Source of the DNA: an uncultured Brachyspira sp.
GTDB taxonomy: Bacteria; Spirochaetota; Brachyspiria; Brachyspirales; Brachyspiraceae
Length of the DNA: 12,319 nt
Assembly (NCBI GenBank): GCA_934725655.1
Contig: CAKVCJ010000027.1
Location: 1 to 12,319 of the forward strand
Reading direction: 5' to 3'
Notes under the pieces: model-generated
Seen by the model: the letters and a program-made list of their open reading frames with translations, nothing else
Databases searched by the model: none
Told to the model about the DNA's origin: nothing
Shown here: one piece after another, positions 1,315 to 9,242 of the stretch
How the letters are laid out: every line of letters begins with the position of its first letter
Position numbering within the stretch: the stretch's first letter is position 1
Made by a program: the position numbers and the translations under genes

Positions 1315-3498
1315 ATGGCAACAAAAAAAACAACAAATAAAGAAGAAGCAAAAAAAAATACTGTAGCTAAGAAAACTACAACAGCTAAAAAAACTGCTGC
1401 TAAAGACAACAGTAAAGAAACTACAGTAAAAAAAACACCTGCTGCTTCAGTAAAAAAAACTGATGCTGCTAAAAAAGAAACAGTTAAAAAAACTGAAGTA
1501 TCGGCAGAAAAGAAGACAGCGGTTGCTAAAAAAACTGCTGCTAAAGATAACAATAAAGAAACTACAGTAAAAAAAACACCTGCTGCTTCGGTTAAAAAAA
1601 CTGATGCTGCTAAAAAAGAAACAGCTAAAAAAACTGATTTGGAAGTAAAAAAAACCGTATCCCCTCTAACTTCTTTAAAAAAAGATGATGCTCAAAAAAC
1701 AATAGATAATATATTCAAAAAGATAGCTGCTAAAGATAATATCGATGAAGCTAATAAACAAACAAAAGAAACATCTTTTACCCCATTAAAAACATCATCT
1801 GCTATAAGAAAAATAGAACCTATTAAAACAACAGAAAAAACTTCAGAAAGAGAATCTATTACTTTATTGAAAGAAGCTATAAGAGCTAAATCTAAAAATG
1901 TTTCAAGACCTATAGTAGCAAAAAAACATTTAGTAGTAGCTGATGATAAAATAGAAGAAGAAAAAACAAATGAAATTGCAAATGAGGCTAAAGAAGAAAA
2001 AACAAATAATGAAATTAAAAGCGAAAATATTTTCAATAAAACAAGTACTATAGTAAATGAAGTATTAAATAAAAAAGAAAATGAAATAATTAAAGATGAT
2101 TATGATAAGCCTCAAACTTTGGAAGAAGTTGTTAAAAAATATAATTTTGATTCGTTTGATAAATACAAAGAAGAAGAGATTTCTAAAGATAAAGAAACTC
2201 AAACTATAAAAGAAGAATTAGAAAAAATAAAAAATGATATAGAAGATATTGAAGAAATAAATAAAGAAACAGAAAATATTGAAAGTCAAGAAACTTCAAA
2301 AGAAAAAACAGAAGAAATTAAAGAAAAAGTAACATACACTAAAGGTGATATATTCAAAAACAGAAAAACTGTTCTTCCTACTATACTTCAGCAAAGCACT
2401 TCAACTGAAGAATCCAAGTTTAATCAAGAAGAAATTGATAAAGCAATAGAAAATGCAGCAGAAATAGATGAAAATACTCCAGTGGATGATTATCCAAATT
2501 ATTCTAATAAAAAATTAAAAGAATTAGAAGAGAAAGACATAAAAATCATAGAAACTGAAGAAGAATTAAAAGCCTCTACAGCTATTCCAGAAATAGAGAA
2601 AAAGCCTGTAGAACCATATAAAGTTCCAGACCATTCTATTGATTCTAAAGATGAAAATAAATCTAATAAATTAATACCAATCATCGGTATTATAATCATA
2701 ATATTAGGCTTATCGTTCTTAGGCTTCCAATTCTTAACTTCTAAAAACGATAATAATGATGACGGCTTTTACAATATAGTTACAAATGAAAATGTATTGA
2801 GTAATGAAAATCTTAATGAAATGACAAATGATTATGATAATTTATCTGACATGTCAAATATTAATGCCATCAGCAGCAATAAAAACAATATTATAACTAA
2901 TCAGCAAAATGATATAAAAAATGTTAATACTAATAAACTTATAACTAATAATATTACAACTAATAATATTGTTTCTAATAATCAAGTAAATAAAATAACA
3001 AATAATACTCAATTAAAAACTAATAACACTCAAACAAATACATCAGCAGCAGTAAAAACAAACACAGCTGTTAATACAAATGTTAATCCACCAAAAGAAC
3101 CTGAATTGCCTAACCCGCCTGTAATACCTGACCCTCCTACTCCGCCAGCAGCACAAAATAATGCTCAAAACAATGCTGTTTCATATATAGATGGTAATTT
3201 GTATAAAACTAAGTGGACAGATACTTTAACTTCTATTGCTGTAAAAGAGCTTGGAGATGCGAGAAAATGGCCTATGATATTTGCTGCTAATGATAATATA
3301 TTTACAGATCCTGATAAAATAGTATTTAATGTAAATATAAAGCTTCCTGATGACGGTAAAAAAAAAATTGAAGATATGAATGATAGAGAAAAAAAAAGTT
3401 TATATGATGCTTACATAAAGGTTGCTGACAGATATATTGAACTTGGTAAAACTAATATGGCTAATATAGTAAGAAATGCTGCTAATAATATAAAATAA
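1315..3498 (+). CDS. Single-pass membrane protein: histone-like Lys-rich N-terminus, C-terminal LysM-like domain
   Basis: A 727-residue protein. Residues 1 to about 120 are an Ala/Lys/Thr-rich, strongly basic segment with recurring AKKTAAKD and VKKTPAASVKKTD motifs, like bacterial histone-H1-like proteins. A 113-bp stretch is duplicated there at a 141-bp (47-residue) period. Residues 120-450 are Glu/Lys-rich, disordered or coiled coil. Residues 453-474 form one hydrophobic transmembrane helix. An Asn/Thr-rich linker and a Pro-rich hinge (592-611) follow. Residues 629-678 match a LysM-like module (DTLTSIAVKELGDARKWP, then FAANDNIFTDPDKI and KLP), which in known families binds peptidoglycan. 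There is no N-terminal signal peptide, so the topology is probably N-terminus in the cytoplasm and LysM in the periplasm. It lies 4 nt after the winged-helix gene and its stop overlaps the next start. A nucleoid-to-wall link is inference; a structural envelope protein or FtsN-like role is also possible. Confidence 0.85.
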   Translation: MATKKTTNKEEAKKNTVAKKTTTAKKTAAKDNSKETTVKKTPAASVKKTDAAKKETVKKTEVSAEKKTAVAKKTAAKDNNKETTVKKTPAASVKKTDAAKKETAKKTDLEVKKTVSPLTSLKKDDAQKTIDNIFKKIAAKDNIDEANKQTKETSFTPLKTSSAIRKIEPIKTTEKTSERESITLLKEAIRAKSKNVSRPIVAKKHLVVADDKIEEEKTNEIANEAKEEKTNNEIKSENIFNKTSTIVNEVLNKKENEIIKDDYDKPQTLEEVVKKYNFDSFDKYKEEEISKDKETQTIKEELEKIKNDIEDIEEINKETENIESQETSKEKTEEIKEKVTYTKGDIFKNRKTVLPTILQQSTSTEESKFNQEEIDKAIENAAEIDENTPVDDYPNYSNKKLKELEEKDIKIIETEEELKASTAIPEIEKKPVEPYKVPDHSIDSKDENKSNKLIPIIGIIIIILGLSFLGFQFLTSKNDNNDDGFYNIVTNENVLSNENLNEMTNDYDNLSDMSNINAISSNKNNIITNQQNDIKNVNTNKLITNNITTNNIVSNNQVNKITNNTQLKTNNTQTNTSAAVKTNTAVNTNVNPPKEPELPNPPVIPDPPTPPAAQNNAQNNAVSYIDGNLYKTKWTDTLTSIAVKELGDARKWPMIFAANDNIFTDPDKIVFNVNIKLPDDGKKKIEDMNDREKKSLYDAYIKVADRYIELGKTNMANIVRNAANNIK
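1384..1637 (+). repeat. In-frame tandem duplication in the Lys-rich segment
   Basis: Copy 1 (1384-1496) and copy 2 (1525-1637) are 113-bp near-identical segments at a 141-bp period, i.e. exactly 47 codons. The encoded repeats differ at only a few residues (for example DNSKE versus DNNKE, and VKKTE versus AKKTD). Silent differences are few, which suggests a fairly recent duplication or ongoing gene conversion. Because the period is a multiple of three, gain or loss of a copy changes the length of the basic domain without breaking the frame. Confidence 0.9.
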
Positions 3499-3976: not shown

Positions 3977-5428
3977 ATGCCAGATGAATTAAATATTGAT
4001 AAATACATCATTCTTACTTTAGATGAAATAAAAGATATAAAAGATAATTTAATAGCACACAGTATTCCATTATTTAGAATGGATAAAGAAAATAATATAA
4101 TAGCTTTTCCTACAGAGCAGTTAAGTCTTATTGTAGATAATCCAAAATACTCTAATGTAAAATTATATGTTCCTAAAAGTTTTTCTCATTTTATAAATGA
4201 GTTTAAATTATTAAATACAAACACTGCTGCAACATATATAGAAACAAACAAATATGTATTTCAAACTCCAAAAGAAGCTGCAGAAGAAATGAGCAGAAAA
4301 ATATCTGAAATATCTAAAATGAGTTATTATGAAAAAGTAAACATAATTGAAACTTACAATAAAGAACTCAAAGAAATTAAAGTTGATGAGAAACATGCAA
4401 TTAATAGAAACACAGCCCAGCAGATAGTAGATGCTGGCAACGATGTTGGACTTATTGCTAAAGTGACTATGTTTGAAAGCATAAAAAAAATTAAAGGAAA
4501 TGAGATTACACAGGATCAGGCTAAATTAGAGAATCAGGAAATTAATGATACTACTACTTCTTTAGTAAATACTATAGTTAATATGCTTTCAAAAAATTTA
4601 GAAACGCAGAAAGTTTTTACAGAATTAAAAAATTATTCTGATGGAGGCGTGATGGCGCATTCAAATAGGGTATTTGTTTCTTATGTAAATTTTCTTGCTT
4701 TCTATAATAATCTCATAAAAAGAAGAAATTTAATACATAGCATAAGAACAGCTTTCCCTAATGTATATAAAAAATATTATGAGAATATGACTACCTCTTC
4801 AGAAAAATATAGAATATACGAAGACTTTAGAACACTTGAAGATTGTATAGATAATGGAATGCGTTTTGTAGAAGAGAAGGAAATGAACTTGTATTCTATT
4901 GGAGCTTTGCTTCATGATATAGGAAAAGTAAAAGATTTGGATTATTTTGAGGGTGAATCTGGAAGAGATTATGAAAGAATAAAAAAGCATTTATTTAACA
5001 GCTACACTTTAGTAAGTCAAACTTCTGAATATTCGCTCGAGGTTATTTTAACAGTTGCTTTGCATCATGAATATTATGGTCTTGGTTATGGGCCTTATGA
5101 GCGTTTATACAAATTAAAATTAGAAAAAGTACCTAGTTTTCAAATACCGAGAATTATGTCTTATGAGGCTAAGGTAATAGATGATTGTGATGCTTTTGCT
5201 TATTTCCCTGCTAAGATGCTTGAGATAATAGATGTTTATGATGCTTTAATCGACCCTGCAAGAAAATATAGAGGAGGAAAAACTTTTACTCCTGAAGAAG
5301 CATTAAACATTATGAAAGAAGATTTTATAGAAAAGCATGTAAAATTAGACCCTATACTTTATGATGTATTTGTTGAGTTTTTAAGCAACTCTATAGAAAA
5401 AGATTTACTTTCTTCTAAGTTGGAATAG
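3977..5428 (+). CDS. HD-GYP-related metal-dependent phosphohydrolase with divergent GYP motif
   Basis: A 483-residue protein. Residues 1-220 have no domain I recognise. Residues 228-440 show the HD-GYP layout: MAHSNRV (His228), LLHDIGK (His313-Asp314), LHHEYYGLGYGP (His363-His364) and DVYDALIDPARKYR (419-432). HD-GYP enzymes hydrolyse cyclic di-GMP in the cytoplasm. The canonical HHExxDGxGYP is altered here: the Asp is missing and an extra Gly precedes Pro. Metal ligands appear kept, so a hydrolase is likely, but c-di-GMP as substrate is uncertain. No receiver, PAS or transmembrane segment is evident, so the N-terminal half may be an unrecognised sensor or partner domain. AAGGA (3960-3964) lies 12 nt before the ATG, a slightly long spacing. 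The gene stands alone, converging on the CheX pair. Confidence 0.8.
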   Translation: MPDELNIDKYIILTLDEIKDIKDNLIAHSIPLFRMDKENNIIAFPTEQLSLIVDNPKYSNVKLYVPKSFSHFINEFKLLNTNTAATYIETNKYVFQTPKEAAEEMSRKISEISKMSYYEKVNIIETYNKELKEIKVDEKHAINRNTAQQIVDAGNDVGLIAKVTMFESIKKIKGNEITQDQAKLENQEINDTTTSLVNTIVNMLSKNLETQKVFTELKNYSDGGVMAHSNRVFVSYVNFLAFYNNLIKRRNLIHSIRTAFPNVYKKYYENMTTSSEKYRIYEDFRTLEDCIDNGMRFVEEKEMNLYSIGALLHDIGKVKDLDYFEGESGRDYERIKKHLFNSYTLVSQTSEYSLEVILTVALHHEYYGLGYGPYERLYKLKLEKVPSFQIPRIMSYEAKVIDDCDAFAYFPAKMLEIIDVYDALIDPARKYRGGKTFTPEEALNIMKEDFIEKHVKLDPILYDVFVEFLSNSIEKDLLSSKLE

Positions 5429-6809: not shown

Positions 6810-7832
6810 ATGAGAGTATATGATTTAAGAACGGACACAATAACTAAGCCAAGTGATGAGATGCGTAAAGCAATATATGAAGCAGAATGCGGCGATGATG
6901 TTTATATGGAAGACCCTACAGTAAATAAACTTCAAGATATATCAGCAGAAATCACAGGAAAAGAAAAAGCAATATTTGTTTCAAGCGGAACTATGGGAAA
7001 TTTAATACCTCTATTAATATTATCATCAAAAACAAGACAGATACTTTTAGAAGAGGAATCACATATTATACACTATGAACTTGGAGGGGTTGCTGCATTA
7101 GCAGGTGTTATGCCTTTGCAAGTAAAAACTAAAAGAGGAATATTAACCAAATCTATAATAGAAGATTATTTTTCTGCCCAGCCTTATTATATGTCTAATA
7201 TCAATATAGTAGAAGTTGAAAATACACATAATAGGCATGGCGGAAGCGTATATCCTATAGAAGTTTTGAAAGAATTATATAGTTTTACAAAAACAAAAAA
7301 TGTGCATATGCATATGGACGGAGCGAGGGTATTTAATGCTTCAATTGCATCAAAAGCTTCAGTAAAAGAAATAGCTTCTAATACAGACTCTATTACATTT
7401 TGTTTATCAAAGGGATTAGGTGCACCTATGGGAGCTATGCTATGCGGAAAAAAAGAGTTTATAGAGGAGGCTTTCAAAATTAGGAAGTTAATAGGAGGAG
7501 GATTGAGACAGATTGGTTTGATGGCTGCTGCAGGAATATATGCTTTAGAAAATAATATTAATTCATTAGAAGAAGATCATATAAAGGCTAAAAAAATTGC
7601 CGCTGCTGTGATAGAAGCAAAATTGGGTGAGCTAAGCTTAGATGAAGTTGAAACTAATATTGTAATAGCTAAAACACAAAAAAAATCTATAGAGATAGTA
7701 AATAAACTTGCAGAAAAAGGAATAAGAGCAAGTTCTTTTGGTGATTATAAATTAAGATTTGTAACACATAGAGATATTAGTATGAAAGAAGTTGAAGAAG
7801 CTTGCGAGATAATAAAAACTTTTAAAATATAA
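6810..7832 (+). CDS. ltaE: Low-specificity L-threonine aldolase (PLP-dependent)
   Basis: A 340-residue fold-type I PLP enzyme, about the usual family length. It cleaves L-threonine and L-allo-threonine to glycine and acetaldehyde in the cytoplasm. The N-terminus VYDLRTDTITKPSDEMRKA and GDDVYMEDPTVNKLQ are family hallmarks. SSGTMGN (58-64) is the phosphate-binding loop and His85 in EESHII stacks on the cofactor. Asp170 in HMDGARVFNA contacts the pyridine nitrogen, and Lys201 in LSKGLGAPMG is the Schiff-base lysine. All key residues are present. AGGAG (6798-6802) lies 7 nt before the ATG, which settles the start. It is a single-gene unit with its own promoter and a large hairpin after the stop. 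Related beta-eliminating lyases share the fold, but these motifs fit threonine aldolase best. Confidence 0.93.
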   Translation: MRVYDLRTDTITKPSDEMRKAIYEAECGDDVYMEDPTVNKLQDISAEITGKEKAIFVSSGTMGNLIPLLILSSKTRQILLEEESHIIHYELGGVAALAGVMPLQVKTKRGILTKSIIEDYFSAQPYYMSNINIVEVENTHNRHGGSVYPIEVLKELYSFTKTKNVHMHMDGARVFNASIASKASVKEIASNTDSITFCLSKGLGAPMGAMLCGKKEFIEEAFKIRKLIGGGLRQIGLMAAAGIYALENNINSLEEDHIKAKKIAAAVIEAKLGELSLDEVETNIVIAKTQKKSIEIVNKLAEKGIRASSFGDYKLRFVTHRDISMKEVEEACEIIKTFKI

Positions 7833-7941: not shown

Positions 7942-7969
7942 TTGACTTTTTAATTATTTTTAATATACT
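7942..7969 (+). promoter_or_regulatory. Promoter of the aroF leader transcript
   Basis: TTGACT (7942-7947) and TATACT (7964-7969) are 16 bp apart, a near-consensus housekeeping promoter. Transcription would begin at about 7975, only some 3 nt before the ATG of the leader peptide, so the leader ORF may be translated without a ribosome-binding site. Confidence 0.7.
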
Positions 7970-7977
7970 ATATTACT

Positions 7978-8055
7978 ATGAAAGGTAATATTATTTTAAA
8001 TACAAATAATTTCTTAGCTTATTACTTTAAGTCTTTTTATTATTTTGGCGTTTAA
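7978..8055 (+). CDS. Aromatic-rich leader peptide of aroF
   Basis: A 25-codon ORF starting at the first ATG after the promoter. Its last 14 residues are FLAYYFKSFYYFGV, so eight of fourteen are Phe or Tyr, arranged as FxxYYFxxFYYF. The stop codon lies in the loop of the terminator hairpin that follows. DAHP synthases of this type are feedback controlled by Tyr or Phe, so a Phe/Tyr-rich leader is the pattern expected of ribosome-stalling attenuation. No ribosome site precedes it, and the predicted transcript start leaves almost no untranslated leader. Short ORFs in AT-rich DNA are enriched for Phe and Tyr by composition, but the clustering beside a terminator argues against chance. Confidence 0.7.
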   Translation: MKGNIILNTNNFLAYYFKSFYYFGV

Positions 8056-8076
8056 AGCGCCAGAGTATCTTTTTTT
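8041..8076 (+). terminator. Attenuator terminator in the aroF leader
   Basis: GGCG (8047-8050) pairs with CGCC (8058-8061) and the stem extends outward as TATTTTGGCG/CGCCAGAGTA with two G-U pairs. A run of seven T follows at 8070-8076. The G+C-rich stem core stands out in this region. It overlaps the end of the leader ORF, and aroF begins about 120 nt downstream, so it would act inside the transcript. CTTTAA (8025-8030) can pair with TTAAAG (8052-8057) as a weak competing structure. Confidence 0.65.
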
Positions 8077-8198
8077 AAACAACCACACATACATTTTAAT
8101 TTAATCTAAATAATAAAAACATTATGATAAAATATAATGCTTATTATTAATAAATTACTATCAAAAAAATAAATATATTTTTAAGGAGAAAAACGAAT

Positions 8199-9242
8199 AT
8201 GATTATAGTAATGAAGGCAAATGCCAAAGAAGAACAAGTTAATAATATAACAGATAGATTAACTAATTTAGGACTTGGTACAAACAAAATCGTAGGAGTA
8301 GACTGTACAGTTATAGGTATTGTAGGCGACACTTCAAAAGTAGATAAAGAATTAATAGCAACATTACCAGGCGTAGATAAAGTATTAAAAGTACAAGAGC
8401 CATTCAAAAGAGCAAACAGAGCATTCAAAAAAGAAGATACAATAGTAGATGTAAGCGGAGTAAAAATAGGTGCAGAAAAGCCAGTAATTATAGCAGGCCC
8501 TTGTTCTGTGGAAAGCGAAGAGCAAGTAATAAATATAGCAAAAAGCGTAAAAGCATCAGGAGCTTCAATACTTAGAGGAGGAGCTTTCAAACCAAGAACT
8601 TCCCCTTATGCATTCCAAGGCTTAGCACTTGACGGACTCAAAATATTAAAACTTGCAAAAGAAGAAGTTGGAATTCCTATTGTAAGTGAGATTGTATCTA
8701 TAAGACATTTAGAAGATTTTGAAAACACTGTTGATATGATTCAAATTGGTGCAAGAAATATGCAGAACTTCGAGCTTTTAAAAGAGGTTGGTAAATTAAA
8801 AAAGCCAATACTTTTAAAAAGAGGCTTAGCTAACACTATGGAAGAATGGCTTATGAGTGCAGAATATATATTGGATAAAGGCAATCCAAATGTGGTGTTG
8901 TGTGAGAGGGGTATAAGAACATTTGAAACATACACAAGAAACACTTTCGATGTATCAGCCATACCAGTAATAAAAAGAATGAGCCATTTACCTGTTATAG
9001 GCGACCCTTCACATTCAAGCGGAAGAGCGTGGATGGCATTACCGCTCACACTTGCTGCTATTTCAGCAGGTGCTGACGGTATGATTATAGAAGTACATAA
9101 TGACCCAGAGCATGCTTTATGTGACGGTGCACAGTCTATAAAACCTGATACATTTGCAGACGTAATGGAAGCAGTTAATATGATTAGCGAAACAGTATCC
9201 AAAATAAAATCAAAACACAACGGAAGAGTTTATACAAAGTAA
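8199..9242 (+). CDS. aroF: 3-deoxy-7-phosphoheptulonate (DAHP) synthase, type Ibeta with N-terminal regulatory domain
   Basis: A 347-residue enzyme for the first step of the shikimate pathway: phosphoenolpyruvate plus erythrose 4-phosphate to DAHP, in the cytoplasm. Residues 1-70 form the ferredoxin-like domain found in Thermotoga maritima DAHP synthase, where Tyr or Phe inhibits. The barrel shows IIAGPCSVE (97-105), RGGAFKPRTSPYAFQG (126-141), LLKRG (205-209), CERGIRTFE (235-243) and DPSHSSGR (269-276). Metal ligands Cys102, His272, Glu298 and Asp309 fall at the same numbers as I recall for the Thermotoga enzyme, so the ATG at 8199 is very likely right. AAGGAG (8183-8188) is 10 nt upstream. 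SSGRA replaces the more common SGGRR. No other aromatic-pathway gene is adjacent. Expression probably depends on the leader and terminator at 7978-8076. Confidence 0.95.
   Translation: MIIVMKANAKEEQVNNITDRLTNLGLGTNKIVGVDCTVIGIVGDTSKVDKELIATLPGVDKVLKVQEPFKRANRAFKKEDTIVDVSGVKIGAEKPVIIAGPCSVESEEQVINIAKSVKASGASILRGGAFKPRTSPYAFQGLALDGLKILKLAKEEVGIPIVSEIVSIRHLEDFENTVDMIQIGARNMQNFELLKEVGKLKKPILLKRGLANTMEEWLMSAEYILDKGNPNVVLCERGIRTFETYTRNTFDVSAIPVIKRMSHLPVIGDPSHSSGRAWMALPLTLAAISAGADGMIIEVHNDPEHALCDGAQSIKPDTFADVMEAVNMISETVSKIKSKHNGRVYTK

Follow-up and report, generated by a model that had tools for sequence, protein, structure and literature searches.

Attenuators of the E. coli pheA and trp type work through an antiterminator switch, with the control codons in segment 1 and the stop codon before the terminator. 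Upstream of aroF in a Brachyspira genome we found a leader that resembles such attenuators (covered by parts of PMC1183508) in having control codons in a leader peptide and a predicted intrinsic terminator before a biosynthetic gene; unlike them, it carries its stop codon in the terminator loop, and no antiterminator was detected. The leader is probably a transcription attenuator of the ribosome-mediated kind, which responds to charged tRNA-Phe and tRNA-Tyr and regulates aroF by occlusion.

The closest target is aroR-aroF of C. glutamicum (Neshat 2014, as related in passages of PMC11802643 and PMC4046766), in which a Phe-Tyr-Phe leader peptide stands before a DAHP synthase gene. According to the same passages, stalling when Phe is limiting is said to raise aroF transcription, Tyr being without effect. 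In both systems a DAHP synthase gene is preceded by a leader peptide with Phe/Tyr codons, a likeness seen in the leader peptides; unlike aroR, which belongs to another phylum, 16 of the 41 Brachyspirales leaders compared here are Tyr-rich and others mixed. The closest mechanism may be that of B. subtilis tlrB (yxjB). In the sections of PMC6851288 devoted to it, the terminator base is proposed to be blocked by a stalled ribosome, with no overlapping antiterminator identified; RNA polymerase has to pause, and termination returns once the ribosome is released at the stop codon. Direct occlusion would thus have a precedent. As in tlrB, the leader ORF extends to the terminator base and no antiterminator was detected. 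Unlike the Brachyspira leader, tlrB senses a macrolide via an RYR arrest motif, and it has an SD-sequestering hairpin as well as a Shine-Dalgarno sequence for the leader peptide (PMC6851288, same sections). The leader C-termini described here read aromatic-G-V, and the R/K-X-R/K macrolide arrest motif is absent; the aroF leader may be tlrB-like in its working, yet not a member of that group.

Similarly, the Acholeplasma element uORFC-13-1 lies before aroF and is described, in extracts of PMC8632094, as comprising a promoter, a start codon, Phe codon(s), a terminator stem and a second paired element, a sequence of parts shared by the Brachyspira leader. Compared by description, uORFC-13-1 has a ribosome-binding site in addition, and at least one Phe but no Tyr run is named. 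The study took in the phylum Spirochaetes, and its main text makes no mention of Brachyspira. For aroF of E. coli and Shewanella, a Tyr-tRNA attenuator has been proposed as a hypothesis (parts of PMC2659441; also PMC8632094); the likeness lies in Tyr-tRNA attenuation of a Tyr-sensitive DAHP synthase gene. The mRNA of Sinorhizobium meliloti trpL starts at the leader ATG and serves Trp sensing (PMC7298713, in part), and the leader peptide of C. glutamicum ilvB is leaderless too (PMC11857589, in part). A (near-)leaderless leader peptide mRNA is what trpL has in common with the present case, from which it differs in Trp sensing, organism and RNA.

The kind of system is therefore already known, and what appears to be new is its occurrence in this lineage, the use of a stop-in-loop occlusion design to sense amino acids, and the division between paralogues. 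Among the matches listed, the open-access literature held nothing relevant on attenuators of Brachyspira or other spirochaetes, in agreement with a preliminary description of the locus that knew of no amino-acid attenuator in this lineage. If the proposal is true, Brachyspirales, a spirochaete order, joins the lineages with amino-acid attenuators; end-product sensing would be possible via plain ribosome occlusion on a near-leaderless mRNA; and there would be a Tyr-reading attenuator where C. glutamicum aroF reportedly answers to Phe, not Tyr. Outside this lineage, a scan of 64 aroF loci from other bacteria flagged 9 with aromatic-rich leaders, to which L019 and L022 were added by eye, giving 11 (L019, L022, L024, L025, L026, L029, L030, L032, L044, L052 and L059, upstream of position 4001). 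They are labelled Clostridia and kin, Selenomonadales and Smithellaceae, and are likely ordinary attenuators, perhaps undescribed ones.

The leader locus

The window, by which we mean the whole 12,319-nucleotide stretch of DNA analysed, stems from an uncultured Brachyspira sp. and has Brachyspira pilosicoli as its closest relative (99% identity). The features that concern the leader are:

7942..7969, + strand: predicted sigma-70-type promoter TTGACT-16-TATACT (promoter scan)
7978..8055, + strand: leader ORF of 25 codons plus TAA, MKGNIILNTNNFLAYYFKSFYYFGV (read directly; in frame in 41/41 leaders)
8017..8032, + strand: small hairpin GCUUA-UUACUU-UAAGU, candidate RNA polymerase pause hairpin (folding)
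8020..8046, + strand: control region YYFKSFYYF, with seven aromatic codons out of nine (read directly and from the 41-leader comparison)
8041..8067, + strand: predicted terminator hairpin of 12 pairs, -13.1 kcal/mol, core GGCGUU/AGCGCC (terminator scan)
8068..8076, + strand: U tract UCUUUUUUU, T score 3.44
8183..8188, + strand: AAGGAG, ribosome-binding site of aroF (read directly)
8199..9242, + strand: aroF, DAHP synthase with an N-terminal ferredoxin-like domain, 347 aa (NCBIfam, Pfam)

The preliminary description had proposed a promoter, a 25-codon ORF, a hairpin with seven T, and aroF with its own ribosome site, and direct reading finds all of them where it placed them. The hairpin and its seven T do run to 8076, but the left arm, which had been taken to begin at 8047, belongs to a full stem that starts at 8041. 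TTGACT occupies 7942-7947 and is followed by a spacer of 16 nt; TATACT ends at 7969, 8 nt before the leader ATG at 7978. On its own the promoter scan was not above chance (6 sites against 7.0 expected). The leader is very U-rich, its ORF has the C-terminal end FLAYYFKSFYYFGV, and its TAA (8053-8055) forms the loop of the terminator hairpin as UAA, with the codons for Tyr22 and Phe23 at the stem base. After the stem come TC and then seven T at 8070-8076. The aroF product matches NCBIfam NF006421 and Pfam PF00793 and PF18152.

Between 7501 and 8600 the terminator scan returned one site, where shuffles lead one to expect 0.2 (sd 0.5). The leader RNA folds with a z of -2.83 relative to its own shuffles, 3/200 of which fold equally well. 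Dinucleotide shuffles of the intergenic region contained an ORF with at least 7 F/Y per 12 codons in 79/5000 cases, and 0/5000 combined such an aromatic-rich ORF with a terminator-like hairpin spanning the stop. A T-box or other known Rfam RNA was ruled out, with 0 family-model matches at the gathering score in the window.

Upstream of the leader, at 6810-7832, lies a gene for a PLP-dependent aldolase of the GntG/threonine aldolase group, which among the loci compared stands at that place in the window, L103, L104 and L105 and not in L081. Positions 1315-3498 encode a protein of 727 aa that contains long Lys/Ala/Thr-rich repeats and matches no Pfam family.

Conservation across Brachyspira and the order

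The comparison comprises 41 leaders: one from the window, 37 from aroF copies in 22 Brachyspira genomes, and three from order relatives. Leaders were identified by the pattern GGY-GTY-stop, an earlier search round having used GGCGTTTAA; given the search pattern, conservation of Gly-Val-stop and of the left core arm is partly by construction. No such selection acted on the right arm, on the frame back to the ATG, on promoter spacing or on the aromatic codons. An aroF match occurs in 25/26 genus genomes, G020 being without one. We read the 5' regions of 43 Brachyspira aroF copies and of a divergent G024 copy, leaving L092 and L102, whose gene 5' end is missing, out of the counts. The leader is present in 37/43 copies and absent from six (L096, L113 and L123-L126), and none was seen at the divergent copy (L116/L160). 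Among order genomes outside the genus, 3/5 have it (G010, G028, G029), and no leader was found at aroF in G030 and G031. In G013 there are two aroF copies (L113, L126) with a leader on neither, and each begins 25-40 nt after another ORF.

The 41 leaders represent 35 distinct ORF sequences of eight lengths, and the frame from the promoter-anchored ATG to the stop is open in all of them (in L097 the second of two in-frame ATGs was used). The stop is TAA in 39, TGA in one and TAG in one. The best-scoring promoter has a spacer of 16 in 40/41 leaders and of 17 in L158, and the gap from -10 box to ATG is 7-9 nt throughout (8 nt in 37, 7 or 9 in four). Because the -10 box lies 7-9 nt before the ATG, the leader mRNA, with its start inferred from that box, is expected to be nearly leaderless, and the spacing in this way bears out, for a predicted start, what had been suggested for the window.

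The leader ORF, the aromatic codons, the hairpin, the stop in its loop, the promoter-to-ATG spacing and the link to aroF all emerge from the comparison. The association of a Phe/Tyr leader peptide with a terminator-like hairpin before aroF, claimed for the window, is thus maintained in the 41 leaders. Judged by sequence, the leader is real and conserved, and its reading as an attenuator is well supported.

Hairpins in the leader RNA

The core of the terminator hairpin has five pairs in 41/41 leaders and a sixth in 38/38, with the right-arm register of the three outgroup leaders placed by hand. L158 has a two-sided change in the core stem from C-G to U-A, U-A and U-G exchange at two core-stem positions, and L089 has C-G for U-A one pair further. 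The lower stem is uneven, with pair 7 in 24/41, pair 8 in 24/41 and pair 10 in 23/41 leaders. The stop codon sits in the loop of the hairpin, and its last A is also paired in two leaders, L091 and L158. With the terminator called from sequence, the T score is at least 2.0 in 36/41 leaders and the U tract is weak in the other five (L091, L107, L122, L158, L159). The hairpin would act as a terminator.

The upstream hairpin beats a synonymous-codon null in 10/34 distinct regions. Significance is reached by 4/4 distinct leaders of the window's group (p 0.02-0.04), and by 6/15 distinct regions of the Phe class, 0/12 of the Tyr class and 0/3 of the outgroup. The Tyr class has a covarying counterpart of this hairpin, with four pairs in 16/16 leaders, the variable pair being C-G in 12, U-G in two and U-A in two. 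The hairpin at 8017-8032 is a candidate RNA polymerase pause hairpin. Pairing of the trp antiterminator type was tried and rejected: complementarity of the leader to either terminator arm was within the synonymous-codon null, with 4/70 tests at p<0.05, as by chance. That the arrangement departs from the four-segment trp type, as had been noted for the window, agrees with this result, in which no antiterminator stands out.

Aromatic codons and leader classes

The codon before the Gly (-1) specifies Phe or Tyr in 41/41 leaders, and an aromatic codon stands at -2 in 40/41 and at -4 in 39/41. The leaders fall into 17 Phe leaders, 16 Tyr-rich ones, and mixed ones in the window, four relatives and three order relatives. 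In the 17 Phe leaders, the eight codons that precede Gly never include one for Tyr; the 16 Tyr-class leaders read Y-A-Y-Y-F-F-Y-Y-G-V with small variations. Codon drift was followed by counting extra alleles at codon positions 1, 2 and 3. In the Phe class, counted over the 12/17 leaders of similar length, these number 1, 1 and 5 in aromatic codons and 5, 9 and 6 in other codons, and variation in the aromatic codons is mainly third-base. The pattern is less clean in the Tyr class (16 leaders), whose aromatic codons have 3, 4 and 7, positions 1 and 2 together equalling position 3. The alignment with relatives that had been suggested as a check has thus been carried out, and its outcome favours the proposal: aromatic codons survive codon drift and the stem shows compensatory changes.

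Restriction to aroF

The pattern GGCGTTTRARRCGCC has 37 sites in 22/26 genus genomes, and its reverse has 0. All 37 lie at most 391 nt from an aroF end; within the genus genomes scanned, the leader motif is confined to aroF (37/37 sites), which rules out the same motif elsewhere in the genome. At 16 pheA/tyrA loci from eight genomes no comparable leader was seen: the best short ORF upstream never exceeded 5 F/Y/W per 12 codons, a survey in which the start is internal in L203 and tyrA of G010 and G029 sits behind aroF. Of the 57 places with near-leaderless ORFs located in four genomes, 30 were viewed by eye; among these 30 the pattern was seen at aroF leaders alone (L173, L175, L182, L193).

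A prephenate dehydrogenase domain is encoded directly 3' of aroF in G010 and G029. In L082, L083, L087 and L091 the gene downstream of aroF resembles one for 3-dehydroquinate synthase (aroB), so in these loci the leader may control a longer unit.

Mechanism and alternative explanations

The proposed mechanism would run as follows. The transcript would begin a few nucleotides from the ATG and a ribosome would load on the bare 5' end, the small hairpin and pausing holding RNA polymerase close by. The ribosome would then enter the run of aromatic codons, which borders on the terminator base and supplies part of it. With ample Phe and Tyr it would reach the stop and depart, the hairpin would form and transcription would end; with Phe or Tyr short, it would linger on the last aromatic codons and cover the left side of the stem, and polymerase would proceed into aroF. 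From the layout of the leaders we infer termination at the hairpin, relief on starvation, and occlusion as the switch instead of an alternative fold. Since there is no sign of an antiterminator and most control codons lie at or after the 3' arm of the first hairpin, occlusion would be the remaining route. Some aromatic codons lie upstream of the stem-blocking zone, namely the window Tyr codons at 8020-8025 and more in L158, L159 and L091; those early Tyr codons in the window are too far upstream for stem coverage. Further points that weigh against the proposal are the less clean Tyr-class codon pattern, the uneven lower stem, the weak U tracts of five leaders, and an upstream hairpin with significance in 10/34 regions.

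Occlusion was also followed in a kinetic model, a sketch with assumed values for footprint, rates and occlusion zone (-6 to stop). The rates, those of E. coli, were 50 nt/s, 15 codons/s and a release of 1 per second (from parts of PMC1183508), and faster release was also tried; runs with delays of 0, 1, 2, 4 and 8 s used a release of 2 per second. With polymerase freed at the first hairpin and no delay, slower aromatic codons mostly lowered read-through, the exception being L094, which with fast release and U-tract dwell showed a slight rise. With delays of 2-8 s, modelled read-through started at 0.15 or less and climbed to peaks of 0.37-0.74 as codons slowed; with a delay of 1 s it went from 0.36-0.40 to 0.55-0.75. 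At the slowest codon rates read-through dropped again in several cases, in the window at 2 s delay from 0.48 to 0.04. Direct occlusion without RNA polymerase delay, mostly of the wrong sign, was accordingly discarded and kept solely in its delayed form. The preliminary idea of occlusion from a pause at the YYF codons is thus compatible with the model given a delay, but mostly fails in sign if polymerase runs on. The model would need RNA polymerase to be delayed by about 1-8 s before the terminator, and on these terms occlusion of the terminator base by the ribosome would be the best-fitting mechanism.

Other explanations have to be weighed against this one. An overlooked antiterminator that forms on ribosome stalling would make the leader an ordinary trp/pheA-type attenuator, and aromatic-rich leaders with a separate downstream terminator-like repeat do precede aroF in the 11 loci viewed by eye elsewhere. 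A first hairpin is likewise present here, but most control codons lie at or after its 3' arm, so a stalled ribosome would cover the hairpin itself. Moreover, any upstream complement to either terminator arm stays within the null, and both the minimum-energy and the centroid fold of the window leader contain the terminator hairpin, which leaves this explanation unlikely. In pyrBI, control is of the coupling type, and an analogous leader would have a close-trailing ribosome suppress the terminator, fast translation giving more aroF and stalling less. The no-delay kinetic model mostly acts in this way and the leader is strongly U-rich; yet starvation would then shut off a biosynthetic gene, and the way in which Phe and Tyr codons are shared out among paralogues indicates end-product sensing. 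We give coupling a small chance of being right.

It is also conceivable that the hairpin serves mainly RNA processing, stability or fixed-level termination and that the aromatic codons come from U-richness, not from sensing. In an AT-rich genome UUU and UAU come at little cost, the 79/5000 shuffles with an aromatic-rich ORF attest to this, and part of the U tracts are weak. Against it, the frame, the stop site and the aromatic codons at -1 and -2 survive codon drift and whole-codon indels, and the Phe versus Tyr division tracks paralogues; this view seems very improbable to us.

Leaders and aroF paralogues

In 15/26 genomes one aroF copy has a Phe leader and one a Tyr+Phe leader; two of the 26 have the Phe leader alone and one the Tyr leader alone. 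Four B. pilosicoli-like genomes carry a mixed leader on one aroF copy and none on the other, with a single motif site per genome, and in each of the three leader-bearing order relatives the one aroF match has a mixed leader. The aroF protein of the window shares 90-91% identity with the Phe-leader copies of full length (93% with a partial one) and 85-89% with Tyr-leader copies. In a protein tree of 41 rows, calculated without L095, L101, L120 and L122, the leaderless copies of the four relatives group inside the clade of Tyr-leader copies (fork 95/94); ultrafast bootstrap values for the wider splits are 86-93, and the deeper branching is not firm. A downstream gene family is common to the Tyr-leader copies L098, L099 and L117 and the leaderless L096, and this shared flanking gene agrees with the tree placement of the leaderless copies.

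The split of Phe and Tyr leaders between paralogues suggests, and matches, end-product sensing. An ancestral Phe+Tyr sensor would have been split after aroF duplication, and the mixed leader of the B. pilosicoli group could be either a kept or a regained form. We regard as evenly poised the fuller reading of a two-hairpin, antiterminator-free attenuator, with the stop in the terminator loop and the ribosome as antiterminator, whose Phe+Tyr sensor split after the Brachyspira aroF duplication into a Phe and a Tyr-leaning sensor, the B. pilosicoli group having the combined sensor on one copy and no leader on the other. The DAHP synthase paralogues would then offer a natural experiment in which regulatory specificity is legible in codons and both splitting and loss are visible among species, and leader codons would predict which aroF copy answers to Phe and which to Tyr.

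Finally, in L095 (G008), L120 (G015) and L122 (G018) a partial aroF 5' copy of 18-42 codons followed by a stop, a tandem partial duplication, lies between the Tyr leader and the full-length aroF, and the aroF start initially located in these three loci belonged to the partial copy.
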